From positions 1 to 22,812 of IMG/VR virus record IMGVR_UViG_3300032315_000497: 22,812 nucleotides of DNA, one strand, 5' to 3'. A model generated the notes under the pieces. It was not told the origin of the DNA and made no database searches. It saw only the letters and a list, made by a program, of their open reading frames with translations. This DNA is from a virus. Of this stretch, positions 1-15,693 are shown piece by piece. A program made the translations under genes and the position numbers. How positions within the stretch are numbered: the first letter of the stretch is position 1; the number at the start of each line of letters is the position of its first letter.

Positions 1-1129
1 GACCATTAAATGTGAATATAGAATTGTTTGTTGAGCTGTTTGCTATAATTCTAACATTTCTTGTTAGGTTAATTATCTCAACCTCAGTCCCTGCATGAAT
101 TGTTTTTGCATTTGTTAAACCTGCGGAAATTGTAATACCTGTTCCAACTGCGTTAGCGTTTAGTGTTCTTAAGTCAAAAGCCGCTACGGATGCTGTAGTT
201 GGTGCTATACATATATTATCACCATTTAACCAGCCTGTGCTTGTCGTTGTGGTTAAAGAAGTTGCTCCCACAATAGCGTTTGCACCTAATGTTTCTCTAC
301 CTGTTTTAGCCGCACCACATGTTTGGAATGTATGTAACATTCTTAAATTTAATTGAATTTGGTTTGCAGAAGCACAGTTAAATTGAAGCAAAGCAGAAGA
401 TGTTGAAGGAATAGGAGTTCCAGCCGTTCCAATGGTAAATGTTCCACCGCCACCAACATTGACATTTCCACCAACAATAAGCTGATATGCTGTGCTAGCA
501 GCAACGCCATAAGCTAAAGTTCCTCTTGTGCCTATCTCAACCGCATTATTGGCAACTGTTCCGTAAACTGTAGCAGCTGTTTCATTCATTGTAACTGTAT
601 AAGCTGCAAATGTAGCAGCGGCAGTATGTTCACCACCAATTAACATCGTATCGCCAGCAGCAGGAGCGCCTGTTGTTGTTGTAAGTAAAGCTCTTGACCA
701 GTTATTTACAGTAGCGTTTCTATATACAGTAACCGCACCAGCAACAGATGAAACAATTTCAAAAGTGTAAGATGTGGCTACAACAAGAAGAACAGGGGCA
801 GCAAATTTAAAATATAACCAAAAACCACCTGTAGAAGTTACAGCAGGAACATCAGAGGCATTTATTGTCACAGTAGTTCCAGGAACCGCAACACCAGCAA
901 TAGCAAGCCTAACAGATATAGTTCCACTTGGAGATGCAGTTCTATTCGCTAACTTAACCGCCATTCCTTCGATAGTAATAGCGCCTGGAATAAAAGCCGA
1001 AGATGATACAAAAGATGTAGTAGTTGCTGTTGAAGCGGCTTCACTGTTTAAATACGAAGTTGCATCAACAACACGCCAAGTTCCTGCCGCTGTCCAATTA
1101 CCTGTTTGTCCACTAAATAATATCGCCAT
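1..1129 (-). CDS. Large beta-rich tail fibre / beta-helix protein with G8/CEMIP-like motif (partial, 3' end outside window)
   Basis: Reading the minus strand from the ATG at 1129 gives 376 codons with no stop, so the gene runs off the window edge and only the N-terminal part is seen. The product is rich in Thr, Ala, Gly and Val, with alternating beta-strand patterning. Residues 1-150 look like a jelly-roll or sandwich domain. Further on there is a ladder-like stretch, then G299-W-L-N-G-D304 followed by A-P-T, and about fifty residues later H-A-G-T-E-V and L-T-R-N-V (T356-V359). A W-x-x-G-D then H..EV..LTRN arrangement is typical of G8-domain/CEMIP-type right-handed beta-helix proteins. By position it is a receptor-binding fibre or surface-glycan-acting protein. 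The start overlaps the 68-aa gene by 17 bases. Enzymatic activity is not shown, because any active site would lie beyond the window. Confidence 0.75.
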   Translation of the reverse strand, partial: MAILFSGQTGNWTAAGTWRVVDATSYLNSEAASTATTTSFVSSSAFIPGAITIEGMAVKLANRTASPSGTISVRLAIAGVAVPGTTVTINASDVPAVTSTGGFWLYFKFAAPVLLVVATSYTFEIVSSVAGAVTVYRNATVNNWSRALLTTTTGAPAAGDTMLIGGEHTAAATFAAYTVTMNETAATVYGTVANNAVEIGTRGTLAYGVAASTAYQLIVGGNVNVGGGGTFTIGTAGTPIPSTSSALLQFNCASANQIQLNLRMLHTFQTCGAAKTGRETLGANAIVGATSLTTTTSTGWLNGDNICIAPTTASVAAFDLRTLNANAVGTGITISAGLTNAKTIHAGTEVEIINLTRNVRIIANSSTNNSIFTFNG

Positions 1130-4621: not shown

Positions 4622-4815
4622 TAGTATCTATCTCCCATATCTATTGTTGTTGAGCCTGTTAGCCAATCCCCCATATCTATTGAGCCGCCTGTTCCGCTAA
4701 CGCTTGTAATAATCCCATTAACAGTTGAAACAATAGAGTTAAACCAAATTAACCATTGAGGCGTTACTAGTTTATCAGTTATTGGTTGCTGTGCTGGAGT
4801 TGATTGAAGTGTCAT
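4621..4815 (-). CDS. Small fibre-linked protein (64 aa)
   Basis: The start is set at the ATG at 4815, which overlaps the upstream fibre stop as TAATG with GGGG just upstream. A TTG at 4845 would add ten residues inside the upstream gene and lacks support. The product opens with T-L-Q-S-T-P-A-Q-Q-P-I-T-D-K and has an aromatic motif P-Q-W-L-I-W-F-N. It ends in two copies of I-D-M-G-D (one ...IDMGDW, one ...IDMGDR), encoded by a 13-base direct repeat. Its small size, aromatic centre and beta-like tail suggest a small structural connector or a cap for the fibre upstream. I know similar short proteins between phage fibre genes, but none with an assigned function. Confidence 0.6.
   Translation of the reverse strand: MTLQSTPAQQPITDKLVTPQWLIWFNSIVSTVNGIITSVSGTGGSIDMGDWLTGSTTIDMGDRY
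4634..4682. repeat. 13-base direct repeat encoding the IDMG motif twice
   Basis: The plus-strand string cccatatctattg occurs at 4634-4646 and again at 4670-4682, offset by 36 bases (12 codons, in frame). It codes for the duplicated I-D-M-G at the C-terminus of the 64-aa protein. The flanking bases are also similar, consistent with a small in-frame duplication. Confidence 0.7.
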
Positions 4816-6086
4816 TATTGATCCCCAAAAGCTATAAATGTGCAATAAGTTCCATCATTACCACCACCATCATCTGTTTTAAAGAATATTCTACAAGCTG
4901 AAGCTGTCGGTGCGGCAGTTGTGCTTATACCAGCCATTGAACCTTGCGCTCCCATAGCTACAGCAGCGTAGTTTGCAGAGGAAAAAGGTGTAGTAAAATT
5001 TACTGTAAAATCACCTGCTCCGTTATCTCCTATAGTAGAAACATTGTAACTAGCTAAAATATTTGGAGTTCCTGTTCCATTAAATACAACCCACGCTTTA
5101 GCTGCCGCAGGGTGAAATTGTTGCCTGCCTGGTGATACATAAGTTGTAGTTGAAGATGCGGCTTCTTGTTGCGCTTGAGATGCGGCTGCAGGTGAACCAT
5201 CAATAATAGGAAGCCCACTTACTTTAGTATATTGCAAAACTTTCCAGTTGCTTGAACCTAAATATTGAACAATAGCCGTATCGCCGTTCGCTGTTGTGAT
5301 ATTCGCACTTCCCGGTATTATTAAGCTTGTTCCGTTATGCGTTAAAGTTAAAACACCTGAGAACCTAATAAAGTATATCGGTTGAGTAGTTGAGGCTGCG
5401 TTACCAAAACCTGTGATAGTTGCTGTTCCTGTAATCAAAGCTGTGTTTGTAGATAAAGTGCCTAAATCCGTTGTTGTAGCTGAAGATATACTTTGTTCTG
5501 TTCCAAAAGTTTCGCTTCCAGGATTAAGAAGTTCCCAACGAGTATTAGCTGAATTATATTCAAGTAAACAAGCAGCCAACGCACCTGGTATATCACCTGC
5601 CCTAAGTGCAACACCACCCTTTTTAGTTATAGTTCTTGCCGTAAGCCCATCAGGTGCAAATGTTGGAGTTGTTGAGGTGTTAGCACCTAAAGCCACAAAA
5701 CCAACTGTAGTTAAATTTGAAAGCGTAACATTCGGTGAATAATCTGCCGTAATAGCATCAACTGTTCCGCCTGCTGTTGCCATTTGAAAAGTTCCTGCTG
5801 GCCCTGTAGCACCCGGCTCATTAGAGATGTTATCTATCGGATAATCATTTTGCTGAACATCGTTCTGGTCAAATAAATCTATTTTATATGTTCCGCTTAA
5901 CCATATCGGTGCTGAACCTTCTGCGTCAAGTATAACTGGGTTTGTGTTTTGAGTCATTAATGATGATGTTGTGTAAGTAGGTTTTGGAGTTGAAGTTCCT
6001 GCCTCATAAGTATACACCTTACCAAAAGCCAGCGGATTTCCGTTGCTATCAAACGCCCTAAATACTGGCACAAATAAAACACCCAT
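4815..6086 (-). CDS. Tail fibre with head/tail-binding N-terminal domain (423 aa)
   Basis: The ATG at 6086 has AAAGGA upstream in the 19-base gap after the large ejection gene. Residues 1-88 match the adaptor-type N-terminus of podovirus fibres and tailspikes (F-V-P-V-F-R-A-F-D-S-N-G-N-P-L; G-K-V-Y-T-Y-E-A-G-T; Y-K-I-D-L-F-D). This part should dock the fibre on the tail hub. A very short collagen-like piece, G-A-T-G-P-A-G (92-98), follows. The middle (100-190) has the common phage-fibre segment ending W-E-L-L-N-P-G. The C-terminal domain (about 315-423) has K-A-W-V-V-F-N-G-T-G-T and A-S-Y-N-V-S-T-I, a frequent fibre-tip fold. This is the only gene in the array with a clear head/tail-binding domain, so it is probably the anchor on which the other fibres assemble. 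No tailspike-type enzymatic beta-helix is visible here. Confidence 0.85.
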   Translation of the reverse strand: MGVLFVPVFRAFDSNGNPLAFGKVYTYEAGTSTPKPTYTTSSLMTQNTNPVILDAEGSAPIWLSGTYKIDLFDQNDVQQNDYPIDNISNEPGATGPAGTFQMATAGGTVDAITADYSPNVTLSNLTTVGFVALGANTSTTPTFAPDGLTARTITKKGGVALRAGDIPGALAACLLEYNSANTRWELLNPGSETFGTEQSISSATTTDLGTLSTNTALITGTATITGFGNAASTTQPIYFIRFSGVLTLTHNGTSLIIPGSANITTANGDTAIVQYLGSSNWKVLQYTKVSGLPIIDGSPAAASQAQQEAASSTTTYVSPGRQQFHPAAAKAWVVFNGTGTPNILASYNVSTIGDNGAGDFTVNFTTPFSSANYAAVAMGAQGSMAGISTTAAPTASACRIFFKTDDGGGNDGTYCTFIAFGDQ

Positions 6087-10278: not shown

Positions 10279-10707
10279 TTAAATCTCCTTTTCCATTAAA
10301 ATATGTGTTTTCTTCCAACCTGCTTCGGTAAACATTCCCTCAAATCCTAAATGAATATTTGATTGAACTCCCTCGCAGTTATATTCTTCTTTAGCCCATT
10401 TTTCAAATTGAGCTAAAAATTCTAAATTCTCTAAAGGCTTAAAGCCCATTCCAACTGTAATTCTTCCTATTCTTTTATTTGGAAACTGTAAAATATCAGT
10501 AAATATTCCAAACTCTTTTTTTCCCTCTCTAGTTCCTAACCAGAGTTGCATTTTATCTTCTAGTATTAAATTTTTTAAATCTTCTGGAGTAAATTTATTA
10601 AAATCTTTATTGCAAGCTTTTTTAACATAAGGCAGAAGCCAATCCCAAACTTCATCAAGTTCATCAAAACCAACTATGTGATATTCTCTAGAAGGCATAA
10701 GCTCCAC
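10279..10707 (-). CDS. GNAT-like small virion-region protein (142 aa)
   Basis: The longest frame starts at a GTG (10707). An ATG at 10698 is also possible, but its GGAG is only three bases away, so the start is uncertain; both overlap the gp10-like gene. The fold pattern resembles a GNAT acetyltransferase: an N-terminal helical part, strands near I-G-R-I-T-V-G-M-G, a helix F-E-K-W-A-K-E-E, then H-L-G-F ... F-T-E-A-G-W-K-K and a terminal strand with M-E-K-E-I. Such short GNAT-like proteins are found among tail and internal-virion genes of T7-like and related podoviruses. A clear acetyl-CoA R/Q-x-x-G-x-G/A loop is not obvious, so catalysis is doubtful. It takes the place where P22 encodes its tail needle and gp14. 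Confidence 0.6.
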   Translation of the reverse strand: MELMPSREYHIVGFDELDEVWDWLLPYVKKACNKDFNKFTPEDLKNLILEDKMQLWLGTREGKKEFGIFTDILQFPNKRIGRITVGMGFKPLENLEFLAQFEKWAKEEYNCEGVQSNIHLGFEGMFTEAGWKKTHILMEKEI

Positions 10708-12091
10708 ATATCGCTCGTTTAACTGGATCTGTTATGGTAATTCTAAATGTCATTTGGTTTTCGGTATATCCTAGTTTGTTCCAATAAGCTCGCCATTTAT
10801 AAGCACCCATCTTTCCTATTGTAGCAAGTAATTCTGAACCCCATGTTCTACCGCCATCTACGGATATTTCCAACCAAACTACTGGATCGGAACCCTGTCC
10901 TGATACTAACCCAACTCCATACTCAAAGTCAATCTGAATTGTGTTAACGGAGAAACTTTTTCCTTCATTGTTTAAATGTGTAAAAGTTCTTTGCGCTCTT
11001 ATCTCATTTCCAGCATCGCTATAAAATTCTTCACTCATTTCATAGATGTTGCCGTTAGTTTTATCACCCGCTAAATGCTTGTTAAAAACAAACATACAAG
11101 TTGAAGCTTTATGAGTAGTGTAAGTTCCATCATCTTCTAAATTCGCTCTTTCGTGCCATAACTGAATTGCAGCATCATAACAAATTGTAGTTTCTAAATT
11201 CCCACCTGTAAGAACATAAAATAAATGCCCATCTTGCTGGTAAGTATATCCTCTTATCCCAGATAAATCTTCATCTGTGTTAATATATCTCTCAATTGCA
11301 AAAGTGCTTATTCTTAACGGAGTATAACCAGAAGCTCTATAAACTATTCCTTGCCCATCTTTCGAAGTTCCTAGCCAGAATATAGTATTATCTGCACTCA
11401 CTACTGAGAAGGCAGCAGCGCAACCAACTTCCATTCTTGCACCTTGAACCCTTGCAAACGGAAAATCAACATCAGCACTATTTAACCAAATCTCAACAGT
11501 TCTTGAACCTAATAACCAAAGCTGCCCTTGTGTTGAGAAAACCCTTACCAATCCATCTGGCGAACTTTCAGCAGTTGCGAAATCTAAAGCGTTCCAGCTT
11601 AACCCATCTTGCAAACCTGAAATGTAAAACTGCCCTGCGTTAGTGTTATATACGAAGTAACCATCTAACTGAGTTACTGTTAATGCCGGAGATGCAGCCA
11701 AAGTTGGAGTTGCAAACGCATTTGAAGCATAAGTTAAAATGTATATTGAAGCACCATCACAAACCGCTAACTGTGTTGTGTTCTCATCAAACGAAACACT
11801 ACCAACATCTGAGGTTAATGTTCCTCTTAATGTTGTAACACCTGCACTTGATATTTCAAATAACTGCGTCGCTGAAACCAAGAAGGCTCTGCCATTTGTA
11901 GAACTAAAAACTCCTCTTATCGGGCCAATACCTGCCGTTGCAAACAAACTCAACCCAGGTGTTCCATATAATGCAGAAACTTCTTTCCCTTCTCCAGTTT
12001 CGTCAATAGTTGGATAAAAGTTTATCGTTCTCTGTGCATCAAATGGAAGTGAACGCTCTTGATATGATGGCCCAACTAATCCTAATTTCAT
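10688..12091 (-). CDS. Tail hub / packaged-DNA stabilisation protein, P22 gp10-like (467 aa)
   Basis: The ATG at 12091 shares an ATGA overlap with the gp4-like gene. Length (467 aa) is close to P22 gp10 (472 aa). The N-terminus G-L-V-G-P-S-Y-Q-E-R-S-L-P-F-D-A-Q-R-T-I, with N-F-Y-P, is the typical opening of this family. The body shows repeated beta-propeller-like blades with W, G and D, including W-L-L-G-S-R-T-V-E-I-W near residue 195, F-W-L-G and L-W-H-E-R. The C-terminal part (W-L-E-I-S-V-D-G-G-R-T-W-G, then R-I-T-I-T-D-P-V-K-R-A-I-C-G-A) completes the hub fold. It binds below the gp4-like adaptor at the portal, closes the packaged head and provides the platform for fibres and ejection proteins. 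Identification is strong by sequence and position. Confidence 0.9.
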   Translation of the reverse strand: MKLGLVGPSYQERSLPFDAQRTINFYPTIDETGEGKEVSALYGTPGLSLFATAGIGPIRGVFSSTNGRAFLVSATQLFEISSAGVTTLRGTLTSDVGSVSFDENTTQLAVCDGASIYILTYASNAFATPTLAASPALTVTQLDGYFVYNTNAGQFYISGLQDGLSWNALDFATAESSPDGLVRVFSTQGQLWLLGSRTVEIWLNSADVDFPFARVQGARMEVGCAAAFSVVSADNTIFWLGTSKDGQGIVYRASGYTPLRISTFAIERYINTDEDLSGIRGYTYQQDGHLFYVLTGGNLETTICYDAAIQLWHERANLEDDGTYTTHKASTCMFVFNKHLAGDKTNGNIYEMSEEFYSDAGNEIRAQRTFTHLNNEGKSFSVNTIQIDFEYGVGLVSGQGSDPVVWLEISVDGGRTWGSELLATIGKMGAYKWRAYWNKLGYTENQMTFRITITDPVKRAICGAYAF

Positions 12092-12783
12092 CTTAGATAC
12101 CCATCGTAAATGTTGCCCCAGCCTGTAGCAGTAATTGGAATAAACTTAATCGGGCGGTTCTTAGCTATTGCTAAACTTATCGCCTGTTTAGATTGCCCTG
12201 CTATCGCTACTACCGCTGCAGAAGGTTCTTTCCCATACTCAGGAGCTAAATCAACTGCTAGGTTATATCTTAAAGCACGAACCCAACCTTGTGGGAGTGA
12301 AGCTTCGGTAAATAATGTTGTGAATTCTGTTAATGGTTTTTCGCTTAATATATTTAGTGTAGCACTTGAACCTAAAGCTGGATAAACCTTAATCGTTCCT
12401 AAAGGAAAGGCGTTTGTATATGTAAAATATTGTGGAAATGGAGATGTAATTGTTTTTAGTGTGATGTTAGCGTATTCTTCTTCTGAGATATACTCCATCG
12501 GATAATCAATACCACCTGAAGAAAAATAAGCCGAAATAATCTTTGTTGGCCTTGTTGTGTTTAAAACTCCACCTGTTCCCATTGTGTAAGATACGGCAGA
12601 TGATACCGAGAAACTCTCAGTAACTCTTGAAGGAACAAGCAAAGCACTATTCCCCCAAGAGCCTATCATTTCATTTAAAGCTGATAAGCCTTCTTGCCCT
12701 TCGCCAGCTGATAGTGTTTCACCTTTGCGAAGAACTTGTAAAAGCCTACAAGCTCCGGTTATTATTTCAAGTGCGTTGGTCAT
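12088..12783 (-). CDS. Head-to-tail adaptor / head completion, P22 gp4-like (231 aa)
   Basis: The ATG at 12783 has ACAGG upstream and lies three bases after the previous stop. The N-terminal helix (A-L-E-I-I-T-G-A-C-R-L-L, residues 4-15) and A-G-E-G-Q-E-G-L-S-A-L-N-E-M-I-G-S-W (26-43) are hallmarks of the gp4-type adaptor that plugs onto the portal ring. A beta-rich middle follows with P-T-K-I-I-S-A-Y-F. The C-terminal helical part, with R-A-L-R-Y-N-L-A-V-D-L-A-P-E-Y-G, is also family-typical. P22 gp4 is shorter (166 aa), so the extra beta-rich middle is a difference; longer homologues are common in environmental podoviruses. P22 gp4 also has muramidase activity, but no catalytic site can be recognised here. 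Confidence 0.85.
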   Translation of the reverse strand: MTNALEIITGACRLLQVLRKGETLSAGEGQEGLSALNEMIGSWGNSALLVPSRVTESFSVSSAVSYTMGTGGVLNTTRPTKIISAYFSSGGIDYPMEYISEEEYANITLKTITSPFPQYFTYTNAFPLGTIKVYPALGSSATLNILSEKPLTEFTTLFTEASLPQGWVRALRYNLAVDLAPEYGKEPSAAVVAIAGQSKQAISLAIAKNRPIKFIPITATGWGNIYDGYLR

Positions 12784-12786
12784 TTT

Positions 12787-13821
12787 TTACCTGTAAAATT
12801 TAGCAGAAATAATTGGAGTAGTGGCAGAAACTACTGCTATTGTAGAAATGTTACCTGTGTTACCATCGCCTAAGTAATAACCAGTAGGATTAAGATCAGC
12901 GGCAGTTCCTAAAGTTACATCACCCGGCACTACAGCAGCAGGCACTATAGTTACGTTATCTATTGTTCCTGTGAAGCCTGTTGTGGCAAATGATATTGCT
13001 TGAGTAGAGCCAGCGGTAAAGTTTTCAACAAATGTCGCTGATGTGCTTCTTGCTGTTCCTGCCGTTCCACCAACACTTAAAGTTATCGAACCGGCAGAGC
13101 GAGTTGCTGTAAATGATACTTGATAAGATTCACCTTCTACAAGCGGATAATTAAAATTAGCAGTTTGTGAAAGAGTAGTTGAAATAGCACCAGTTGCAAT
13201 AGCCGTTGAACCATCTGTTGTCCAACCCGTTCCTAATATCCAACCAGATATAGTTACGTTATCTATCGAACCAGTAAATCCAGCTGTGTTAAATCTTAAA
13301 ATACCATCAGATCCTGCAACAATAGTTTCAATGAAAGTTGCCGCAGAAGCTCTAGCTGTTCCTGCTGTGCCACCACCTAACGATACAGATATTGTGCCTG
13401 CGCTAAATGAAGTTACAGTAAAAGTAACAGTATAAGAATATCCCGGTATAAATGCTATAGCAGGAGTTTGAGATAATGTTGTAGATATCGCACCAGTAGC
13501 CGTTGCAACGCCAGCAGCTATTGTCCAGCCCGTGCCTTTTGTCCAGCCTGTATCAGAAGCAAATGTTCCGTTAGTTACATATTCAGCATAAGTTCCGTTT
13601 GTAACTCTATCAGTAGCATCTTGTGCATTGTAAGCTTGAGCATAGAAATCAGCCGCAGTTGCACCTGTTTTAGTAAAAGTTACATATCTTGCTTTAAGCC
13701 CATCTTGTGCAGTTGGAACTGTAAATATCTCTGGCACGTTTGCCACAAGAAGAACTGAATTAACAAAGCTTGAAGGATTAGGTAATCCGTTCACCAATTT
13801 ATAATCGTTTAAGATAGGCAT
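12787..13821 (-). CDS. Candidate head-decoration protein with two tandem CBM-like repeats (344 aa)
   Basis: The ATG at 13821 is preceded by AAAAGGAAAT. Residues 1-77 (V-P-E-I-F-T-V-P-T-A-Q-D-G; R-Y-V-T-F-T-K-T; D-F-Y-A-Q-A-Y) and 298-344 (G-T-A-A-D-L-N-P-T-G-Y-Y-L-G-D-G; I-S-A-K-F-Y-R) look like two halves of one small beta domain. Between them lie two similar beta-sandwich units, about 92-192 and 194-292. Each contains a G-T-G-W start, A-T-G-A-I-S-T-T-L-S-Q-T, G-T-A-R and G-F-T-G-(S/T)-I-D-N-V-T-I. That plan (W near the start, DNVTI at the end) matches CBM_4_9-type carbohydrate-binding modules. Lying between coat and the gp4-like gene, it is probably a virion surface protein that contacts glycans. 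Function is inferred. Confidence 0.6.
   Translation of the reverse strand: MPILNDYKLVNGLPNPSSFVNSVLLVANVPEIFTVPTAQDGLKARYVTFTKTGATAADFYAQAYNAQDATDRVTNGTYAEYVTNGTFASDTGWTKGTGWTIAAGVATATGAISTTLSQTPAIAFIPGYSYTVTFTVTSFSAGTISVSLGGGTAGTARASAATFIETIVAGSDGILRFNTAGFTGSIDNVTISGWILGTGWTTDGSTAIATGAISTTLSQTANFNYPLVEGESYQVSFTATRSAGSITLSVGGTAGTARSTSATFVENFTAGSTQAISFATTGFTGTIDNVTIVPAAVVPGDVTLGTAADLNPTGYYLGDGNTGNISTIAVVSATTPIISAKFYR
12946..13548 (-). repeat. Two tandem CBM-like protein repeats (about 100 codons each)
   Basis: The codons at 13246-13548 and 12946-13242 encode two similar units. Shared landmarks are the string ATGAISTTLSQT near the beginning, GTAR in the middle and GFTG-x-IDNVTI at the end. The DNA copies have diverged at many third positions, so this is an old rather than a recent duplication. 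Confidence 0.75.
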
Positions 13822-13838
13822 ATAATTTCCTTTTGAAA

Positions 13839-13860
13839 GTGAGGGCTGTTACACCCTCAC
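13839..13860 (-). terminator. RNA hairpin after the 177-aa gene (weak terminator or processing site)
   Basis: A perfect 7-bp stem (gtgaggg / ccctcac) with an 8-base loop lies just after the stop at 13867. On the minus strand it is followed by TTTC and then AAAAGG, the ribosome binding site of the next gene, rather than a long U run. Full termination is therefore unlikely. Partial attenuation, 3'-end protection or mRNA processing is more plausible. Confidence 0.55.
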
Positions 13861-13866
13861 ATAGTG

Positions 13867-14400
13867 TTAAACAATAGCATTAGCTAATGGAGTTGTAGAA
13901 CCAATTGGTGTGAAAGTCATAGTTGAACCAAGAGCAACTGTAGTAGCTGTAGCATCAGAAGCATTCTGAGCTACTTGCAGCTGTAATGTTCCTGCAAGAG
14001 CAACAGTAATTCTACCCTTTATAGTAACATTAACATAAGCAGTTGTAGCAGCGATAACAGAAGCGGCATCAGTTGATGTAGTGAATGTAGTAGCTGCTAT
14101 AGCTGAAGCGGTAATACCTACTACAGAAAGTGCTGTAGCAGTTATCATCGAAGCAGTTCCCCATTTAAGGGCAGCCTTAACACCACCAGAAGCACCAGCA
14201 GTTGTAATTAGATTAATATCAACTTCGTAATCACCTGGTTGTAGTGTTCCAGTAACCATACCAACTACATCAGCAAGTGTTGTATTAGCTGAGGTGGTAA
14301 AAGCTGTAGTGCATTGTGAAACATCACGAAAGTTATCATTTATTCTTTTTCTAGCACCCGCATCTAAGGCACCTTCAAATCTTATTCTATTTATAGGCAT
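13867..14400 (-). CDS. Candidate capsid decoration / virion surface protein (177 aa)
   Basis: The ATG at 14400 has AAAAGGAAAT upstream. The start M-P-I-N-R-I-R-F-E-G-A-L leads into a short basic helix, A-R-K-R-I-N-D-N-F-R. The remainder is beta-rich: T-T-L-A-D-V-V-G-M-V-T-G-T-L-Q-P-G-D-Y-E, G-G-V-K-A-A-L-K-W-G, I-K-G-R-I-T-V, then G-T-L-Q-L-Q-V-A-Q-N-A-S and G-S-T-M-T-F. That strand order resembles the jelly-roll (C1q/TNF-like) modules of phage surface proteins. It is flanked by hairpins and lies directly after the coat gene, consistent with a high-copy virion protein. P22 has no gene here. Whether it decorates the head or belongs to a fibre cannot be settled from sequence. Confidence 0.6.
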   Translation of the reverse strand: MPINRIRFEGALDAGARKRINDNFRDVSQCTTAFTTSANTTLADVVGMVTGTLQPGDYEVDINLITTAGASGGVKAALKWGTASMITATALSVVGITASAIAATTFTTSTDAASVIAATTAYVNVTIKGRITVALAGTLQLQVAQNASDATATTVALGSTMTFTPIGSTTPLANAIV

Positions 14401-14417
14401 AAAATTTCCTTTTGAAA

Positions 14418-14439
14418 GGGGCTAAGTTTCCCTAGCCCC
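14418..14439 (-). terminator. RNA hairpin after the coat gene (weak terminator or processing site)
   Basis: A perfect 7-bp stem (ggggcta / tagcccc) with an 8-base loop begins a few bases after the coat stop at 14446. On the minus strand it is followed by TTTC and then AAAAGGAAATTTT, the next gene's ribosome binding site. The stem is GC-rich in an AT-rich region. With no proper U tract, it may stabilise the abundant coat mRNA or reduce read-through rather than stop transcription. Confidence 0.6.
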
Positions 14440-14445
14440 AAGTTA

Positions 14446-15693
14446 TTAAGCTGTAATACGGCAAGCCCATTCTGGACGCACTGGAGCTAAACCACCTAAG
14501 AAATCTAAACGCATAATTAGTTTATCTGTTAGAATATCGTAATCTCTAACAACACGAACTGTTATACCTTTGTAAGTTTCTTGTGCAGCCATATCCAAAC
14601 CATCTGGTAATACTAGAGGAACTGAAGCCATTCTGAACGCAGATTTAGCAAAAGCTAAGTTCTGAGTTAAAGAAGTAGAAGCAGGCCCTACAAATACCAA
14701 TGCACCAGTTTCATCAACAGGAGCAGCAGTAACGTTCTGACGAGCATCAGTTGTAGTGTAGTAGATTGCTGGAGAGATAGCTAAAGTAACCGAGTTACCA
14801 GAAGTTTCAGTAACAGATGAAGTTACTGTAAACTGTTGAAGGTAACCTAAATCAGTTTTAGTTATCGGGTGAACCGCATTAACACCAGAGATAGTGAATA
14901 CTGTTCCAGCTGTTATTGTAGCACCTGAAGTAACGCCATCAACACCTAGAGTAGCCATACCATTAGTGATAGGAACTACAGAAGCTTCAACCGCAATACC
15001 AGTTACATCTACGCCGTTAGCGTGAGATTTAAGTAGGTTGTTACGAAGATAAGTGAAACCATCAGCTAAACCAATAACGCCATTTTTATACTGTTTAGAT
15101 ATTTCTTCCGAGCTTTGGAATAAACCTTTGCGAGCATTAACAGCAGAACGATTAGCAGCTGGGTTTAATAGCGCAAATCTTTCATCTGACATTGGAGCTA
15201 GATATTCATCTAACTTTTGACCAGCAGCAAGCATAGTATCTGTATCAAATACAGTTGAACCAGCAGTTCCTACTGAGTTGTTAGTGAAGTTTGTAGCCTT
15301 TTGAAGCATAGCACGTTCAATGTATTGAGCCATAGAAGATACCGCAGGCTTTAATACACGATTAGCCCAAGATTTAAGAGCTAAATCAGTTGCTATTTCA
15401 GTAGAAGTAAGAGCAACTGGCACCACATAACGAATATCTAGTGGTAAAGCTACTTTTTCTTCAACTACATCTTGAATTGAAGATGTAACATCAGCTGTAG
15501 TTCCAGGAATGAAACGAGTTGGCTTAGAGATAAAAATTGTATCACCAGCATTGTATCCGTTCTTTCCTTCGAAATCAGAAGCATCAGCTTTATCTATAGA
15601 TTTACAGAATTGAAGTTGATCTTCCAACATTCCAGCAGCTAGCTTGGCAATAATACCAGGAGCCGCTTTGTTAGTATTAATTGAGTTAACCAT
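14446..15693 (-). CDS. Major capsid (coat) protein, P22 gp5-like with I-domain (415 aa)
   Basis: The ATG at 15693 has AAAAGGAAAA upstream. Length is close to P22 gp5 (430 aa). The N-terminal arm and E-loop region includes G-Y-N-A-G-D-T-I-F-I-S-K-P (46-58). The P-domain helix carries K-P-A-V-S-S-M-A-Q-Y-I-E-R-A-M (115-129), and L-N-P-A-A-N-R (176-182) follows. Residues about 228-335 form a beta-rich insertion (G-T-V-F-T-I-S-G-V-N, then Y-L-Q-Q-F-T-V-T) in the same place as the P22 I-domain. The end (Y-K-G-I-T-V-R-V-V-R-D-Y-D; R-L-D-F-L-G-G-L-A-P-V-R-P-E-W-A-C-R) is typical of P22-type HK97-fold coat proteins. It assembles on the scaffold encoded just upstream. Confidence 0.9.
   Translation of the reverse strand: MVNSINTNKAAPGIIAKLAAGMLEDQLQFCKSIDKADASDFEGKNGYNAGDTIFISKPTRFIPGTTADVTSSIQDVVEEKVALPLDIRYVVPVALTSTEIATDLALKSWANRVLKPAVSSMAQYIERAMLQKATNFTNNSVGTAGSTVFDTDTMLAAGQKLDEYLAPMSDERFALLNPAANRSAVNARKGLFQSSEEISKQYKNGVIGLADGFTYLRNNLLKSHANGVDVTGIAVEASVVPITNGMATLGVDGVTSGATITAGTVFTISGVNAVHPITKTDLGYLQQFTVTSSVTETSGNSVTLAISPAIYYTTTDARQNVTAAPVDETGALVFVGPASTSLTQNLAFAKSAFRMASVPLVLPDGLDMAAQETYKGITVRVVRDYDILTDKLIMRLDFLGGLAPVRPEWACRITA

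Follow-up and report, generated by a model that had tools for sequence, protein, structure and literature searches.

This study identified, in a P22-like podovirus recovered from a metagenome, a 344-residue protein (p344) in which two modules are inserted into a loop of a small beta domain; relatives of p344 carry two modules, one module, or none at this site. The same module moves among virion proteins of this phage group and was found in coat-adjacent proteins, in gp10, and in tail fibres. The modules are predicted to adopt a CBM-like beta-sandwich fold, and the most likely role of p344 is that of an accessory adhesin exposed on the particle.

Gene neighbourhood and domain organisation of p344

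The window, that is, the whole stretch of DNA analysed here, comprises 22,812 nt (22.8 kb) of the metagenomic virus record IMGVR_UViG_3300032315_000497. Its minus strand encodes a terminase, portal, scaffold, coat protein, a 177-aa protein (p177), p344, gp4-like and gp10-like proteins, ejection-type proteins, and fibres (Table 1). Comparison with P22 revealed that terL, portal, scaffold, coat, gp4, and gp10 follow the P22 order. The reading made earlier from the sequence only had stated that P22 has no gene between coat and gp4; this proved incorrect, as P22 has orf69 (69 aa) between genes 5 and 4. The corresponding interval of ST64T contains a 186-aa ORF, and the record annotations give no function for either ORF. 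Given these two ORFs, the interval between coat and gp4 is already known as a site of small variable genes.

Table 1. Coordinates of p344, its parts, and neighbouring features in the window
Feature	Position	Strand	Evidence
p344 (344 aa), small coat-adjacent beta protein bearing two CBM-like insert modules	12787..13821	minus	ORF and translation, ATG start; same-position homologues
Host beta domain, N-terminal half (residues 1-71)	13609..13821	minus	aligns with contiguous domain in L246, L247, L248
First motif copy, RVTNGTYAEY (residues 72-81); probable first strand of module 2	13579..13608	minus	motif score, structural matches
CBM-like module 1 (residues 82-193)	13243..13578	minus	profile matches; own clade 95/84; structural rows 81..204, Z 9.8
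CBM-like module 2 (residues 194-296), without N-terminal motif	12934..13242	minus	profile match from position 10-12; own clade 85/86; Z up to 11.8
Host beta domain, C-terminal half (residues 297-344)	12790..12933	minus	aligns with contiguous domain in L246, L247, L248
P22-like coat protein	14446..15693	minus	PF11651 1.7e-33, phrog_283 1.1e-67
p177, second coat-adjacent protein	13867..14400	minus	same-place homologues in L009, L012, L013, L165, L181
gp4-like head completion protein	12088..12783	minus	phrog_637 7e-7; PF11650 0.0024 (under its cut-off)
gp10-like head closure protein, without module	10688..12091	minus	phrog_578 6.5e-114; L187 homologue has module
Tail-fibre-like protein, without module	4815..6086	minus	relatives sharing first ~80 residues have module
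Hairpin (13839-13860) and leader box TTTCAAAAGGAAATT (13824-13838), ahead of p344	13824..13860	minus	RNA fold -15.3 kcal/mol, z -2.3
Hairpin (14418-14439) and leader box TTTCAAAAGGAAATT (14403-14417), ahead of p177	14403..14439	minus	RNA fold -17.7 kcal/mol, z -2.6

The p344 ORF was confirmed with exactly the limits first proposed, and its strand was corrected to minus. The two similar units of about 100 residues that had been noticed within it are 57% identical over 103 aa (BLASTP 3e-30), with an alignment score of 262 against 51 +/- 8 in 1000 shuffles. The 15-base leader TTTCAAAAGGAAATT occurs free of mismatches only directly ahead of p344 and p177, in both cases with a stable hairpin before it, and the P22 record has an annotated stem-loop immediately past the coat gene. 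The hairpin and leader possibly set the expression or mRNA stability of the coat-adjacent genes.

The coat-gp4 interval of sister phages was also inspected and contained many unrelated small genes (L009:1812-2570, L006:6557-6907, L002:4548-4868). A 107-aa family was observed there in L002-L005 and L020, together with 253-aa and 117-aa ORFs having hydrophobic, signal-peptide-like starts; an ORF that by eye resembles an HNH-type endonuclease lies directly downstream of the coat gene at L007:7887-8369. The N-terminal motif of p177, EGA[FL]D...R..[IV]N.NF, recurs in same-place proteins that otherwise differ (L007:8521-8841, L016:9293-9601, L071:2-892); it resembles a common anchor, and the C-terminal parts are variable. 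Within the genome collection, a close coat relative (54%) was found on one contig only, from Dyadobacter sp. CY261 (L077); this may hint at a Bacteroidota host for the phage group.

Module copy number and carriers

Relatives of p344 were searched for by using a query in which both terminal parts were joined in silico, and further homologues were obtained by using the module itself. Eight distinct two-module homologues were identified, three with the joined halves (L002, L071, and L073) and five with the module (L165, L170, L174, L176, and L181). These proteins, approximately 52-68% identical to p344, are encoded on separate contigs and have an identical arrangement. A p344 homologue of 222 aa with a single module (L171/L172) likewise lies between coat and gp4, as do all homologues with enough flanking sequence. 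In L191 and L196, which are distantly related to the host domain, a single module occupies the same loop, and in L246, L247, and L248-250 the host domain is uninterrupted and contains no module.

With the full profile, L246, L247, and L248 each gave one contiguous match (E 2e-14 to 3e-12). Since the insert-free relatives had come from joined queries, they were retested with a profile built from the inserted coat-adjacent family only, in a space of 40,000 ORFs. They still matched contiguously across both halves (E 5e-8 to 2e-7), whereas the separate halves matched them more weakly (E 1e-4 to 1.4 for the N-terminal half and 2e-4 to 110 for the C-terminal half). The results revealed that the host domain exists without interruption in relatives and that the copy number varies at one site, as in a domain inserted within a domain; the modules are inserted into a loop of a small beta domain, in a series of zero, one, and two copies. 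The proposal that the ends of p344 are two halves of one beta domain was borne out by the insert-free relatives, with the borders refined from 1-77/298-344 to 1-71/297-344. Shorter forms with no or one module were thus found upon comparison with homologues, and the contrary outcome, in which homologues would always have the length of p344, did not occur.

The distant insert-free and one-module relatives are encoded within head or packaging gene modules, with Phage_connect_1 near L246, capsid GP7 upstream of L248, and terminase genes beside L247 and L191. No match to p344, the joined halves, the module, or the short forms was obtained by tblastn against 50,697 phage records; this is not evidence of absence, because the low-complexity filter may hide matches. 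The joined halves matched no genome-collection contig, and a sequence search of the PDB with p344 returned no relative, only two antibody chains at E 0.2-0.7. Two sets of candidate short forms were rejected: the 110-117 aa coat-gp4 ORFs of L006 and L013 and the ORFs of L158/L160 gave no convincing alignment, and a 112-aa ORF family downstream of gp10 matched the host profile at E 0.06-1, which was taken as a chance match.

We further examined where else the module occurs. The gp10 and the fibre of the window itself contain no module. In L187, a module lies inside a gp10 homologue (PF11134), after the position equivalent to approximately residue 123 of the window gp10, and the two gp10 proteins are 44-46% identical on either side of it. 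In 11 further loci (L014, L016, L173, L175, L177, L183, L185, L190, L198, L199, and L214), the module follows an N-terminal part homologous to the fibre encoded at 4815-6086. One contig, IMGVR 3300020045_003272, carries the module in both a coat-adjacent two-module protein (L170) and a fibre relative (L190). These findings show that the module moves among virion proteins. The modules of L191 and L196 fall in another part of the module tree than the coat-adjacent modules, which fits a second, separate entry into this host loop. Elsewhere, the module was observed in three tandem copies beside a weak CBM_5_12 match (L202:2940-4514) and as a single copy beside strong Laminin_G_3 lectin-like repeats (L188:2634-6425).

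Predicted fold and arrangement of the two modules

We employed AlphaFold2 to model p344. A model built from 16 natural rows had a mean pLDDT of 80.6, with low values around residues 71-90 (62 and 50). An earlier model from 4 rows was poor (pLDDT 56), and only this poor model gave a structural row spanning both host halves (5gu5 16..344, Z 6.6). When the 16-row model was compared with the PDB by using VIA-align, 134 chains were found at Z >= 8, and nearly all of the top 18 rows were glycan-binding modules or glycan-active enzymes with such a module. The best row was a porphyran-binding CBM (8xmz, Z 11.8, 115 residues aligned, 2.4 A), followed among others by CBM16 (2zex, Z 11.6), a hyaluronan-binding module (4d0q, 11.3), CBM61 (2xom, 11.2), and CBM4-2 (2y64, 10.7). 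Over the porphyran-binding CBM, CBM16, CBM61, CBM4-2, and the Xyn10A/B CBMs, the predicted model gave Z 11.8-10.0 with 111-117 residues. The structure prediction therefore agrees with the earlier reading of the units as carbohydrate-binding-type beta-sandwiches, the opposite outcome not having occurred, and assigns the modules a beta-sandwich fold of the CBM4/CBM16/CBM61/CBM22 type. Sequence libraries gave only sub-threshold matches, Pfam CBM_4_9 (PF02018) reaching 19.7 bits against a cut-off of 25.9. Meprin MAM domains and Vip3 toxins appear among the lower VIA-align rows; because these match too, the shared fold does not by itself prove sugar binding or indicate a ligand.

The pentapeptide VTNGT was found, as first noted, at residues 73-77 and 82-86 of p344. 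The doubling alone is weak evidence, because 892 of 20000 shuffled forms of p344 contained some 5-mer twice within 20 residues. More weight falls on its conservation: the position is the same in every one of the nine two-module proteins, and eight of these retain the motif sequence. We then considered the original interpretation that the insertion had duplicated the host loop. The motif [VT]TNGTFASDTGWTKG (VTNGTF) forms the start of the module in unrelated carriers, and in the one-module protein L171 it occurs once, at the module start, with the host loop (DFFALEGLE) lacking it. The doubled VTNGT is therefore module sequence and not a duplicated host loop, and that interpretation was abandoned.

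The extra copy precedes module 1, and it is module 2 that lacks roughly the first 10 profile positions. As a module motif, the first copy (72-81) scored 6.5 bits, with a best score of -2.0 elsewhere; in eight of the nine two-module proteins, the extra copy was the best module-start match outside module 1. The structural matches to module 2 begin at residues 64-72, and alignments to single CBM chains run over 68..296 with 112-117 aligned residues. Since this count exceeds the 103 residues available in 194-296, the model appears to build the module 2 sandwich with residues that precede module 1. These findings support, but do not prove, a predicted arrangement in which module 1 interrupts the N-terminal segment of module 2. 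Module 1 would have been added inside this segment of an older module 2, and the first VTNGT would thereby have been left as strand 1 of module 2.

A competing explanation, to which we give somewhat less than even weight, is plain tandem duplication within the host loop, with the first VTNGT being a separate 27-bp duplication of the module 1 start. The motif copies are 9 residues apart, and modules 1 and 2 formed one unstarred clade in a reduced tree (77/55). The sequence test of nesting was neutral, as the first motif copy joined to module 2 scored no better in the profile than random 11-mers from p344. Against a tandem duplication, module 2 is exactly the module without the motif, and the predicted structure places residues from approximately 68 onward in its sandwich. 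In the tree of 79 modules, all module 1 sequences formed one clade (95/84) and all module 2 sequences another (85/86), so the two modules predate the split of the two-module homologues. The L171 module was placed beside module 2 (86/91), and its grouping with module 1 was not rejected (p 0.21).

Proposed role and relation to known systems

On balance, we favor the view that p344 is a head or neck beta-sandwich protein of a P22-like podovirus that displays loop-borne, mobile, CBM-like, glycan-binding modules. The host domain (1-71 and 297-344) would anchor p344 in the particle, and the modules, looped out from the middle of this domain, would be displayed on the particle exterior. There they may bind glycans of the host surface, the capsule, or the surrounding matrix, and this weak multivalent attachment would precede engagement of the fibres. 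The module is a mobile building block, which this phage group places in gp10 and tail fibres as well. The proposed virion location is based on the gene position in the window and on the distant relatives, which are encoded next to genes for capsid, connector, or terminase. A head protein is not proved by gene order alone, since the decoration gene of ST64T lies upstream of the terminase. The putative glycan binding is suggested by the predicted fold and by analogy with 936 phages. A more elaborate version, a Russian-doll glycan-binding appendage in which the mobile module of coat-adjacent protein, gp10, and fibres has nested within itself to give a head-displayed adhesin, is tentative, and we put it forward as a possibility only.

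Rather unlikely, in our estimate, is that p344 belongs to the tail or neck fibres and its gene lies out of order, with the modules serving as accessory receptor-binding domains near the tail. The same modules do occur in tail-fibre relatives, the neighbouring gene 4 and gene 10 products are neck proteins, and the joined host domain of L002 weakly matches the minor tail protein phrog_17345 (PHROG, E 0.009). However, the gene follows coat and precedes gp4 in all homologues with enough sequence, and the insert-free relatives adjoin capsid, connector, or terminase genes.

We regard as unlikely a purely structural role for the modules, as spacers or cementing domains that lend the capsid stability or lift the protein clear of the shell without binding glycans. 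Many non-lectin proteins use the same beta-sandwich, the Pfam CBM_4_9 score lies under its cut-off, and decoration proteins often cement capsids according to a review (PMC7602432). A copy number of zero, one, or two and turnover among three unrelated virion proteins are nonetheless unlike a fixed cementing part, and other carriers pair the module with Laminin_G_3 repeats (L188) or a weak CBM_5_12 match (L202). Finally, although the window is a metagenomic virus record, mis-assembly as the source of the module repeat is refuted for practical purposes by the eight other two-module homologues, which show the same arrangement on independent contigs.

The preferred reading of p344 as a displayed adhesin has several parallels. 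In lactococcal 936 siphophages, CBMs are present in evolved Dit, MTP-TpeX, and the neck passage structure, and two bound host cells (PMC6669499). As in the present phages, CBMs there occur as common bricks on several virion proteins of one phage group, with an internal insertion in Dit (PMC6669499). The 936 carriers are siphophage tail and neck proteins with BppA-like modules, and their cell binding was tested (PMC6669499), whereas ours, in P22-like podoviruses, are the coat-adjacent protein, gp10, and fibres, and the module is a different one. T4 Hoc and Ig-like head domains are similarly optional beta-sandwich domains proposed for surface or mucus attachment (PMC10385173; Fraser et al. 2006, as cited in PMC13320782); they form strings or end additions, whereas p344 has CBM-type modules inside the loop of a small domain. 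Dec of phages L and ST64T is, as p344 would be, a small accessory protein of a P22-type particle (PMC6449081; NC_004348), but it is described as an OB-fold trimer with a C-terminal spike (PMC6449081). Its gene in ST64T lies upstream of the terminase (NC_004348) and that of p344 between coat and gp4; the idea that the L-type Dec gene occupies the interval from coat to gene 4 proved wrong when checked in ST64T. PF02018 and the CBM16, CBM61, and CBM22 structures share the predicted beta-sandwich of the modules at Z of about 10-12, with the sequence under the Pfam cut-off.

Both the use of CBMs as interchangeable bricks of virion proteins (PMC6669499) and the presence of accessory adhesion domains on phage particles are established, and domain shuffling is documented in phage receptor-related proteins (PMC10684548). 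The p344 finding overturns nothing in this knowledge of adhesion domains. In the open-access literature, we found no description of the p344 host domain, of the module in coat-adjacent P22-like proteins, or of the nesting; the carrier, its gene position, and the proposed nesting appear novel. The presence of zero, one, or two modules in one loop of one protein offers a clean natural series on how virions gain adhesins and identifies an insertion-tolerant loop in a small phage protein. A single module type occurs in three different virion proteins within one phage group. The finding also widens CBM decoration, known from the tails and necks of siphophages, to the coat-adjacent gene of metagenomic podoviruses.
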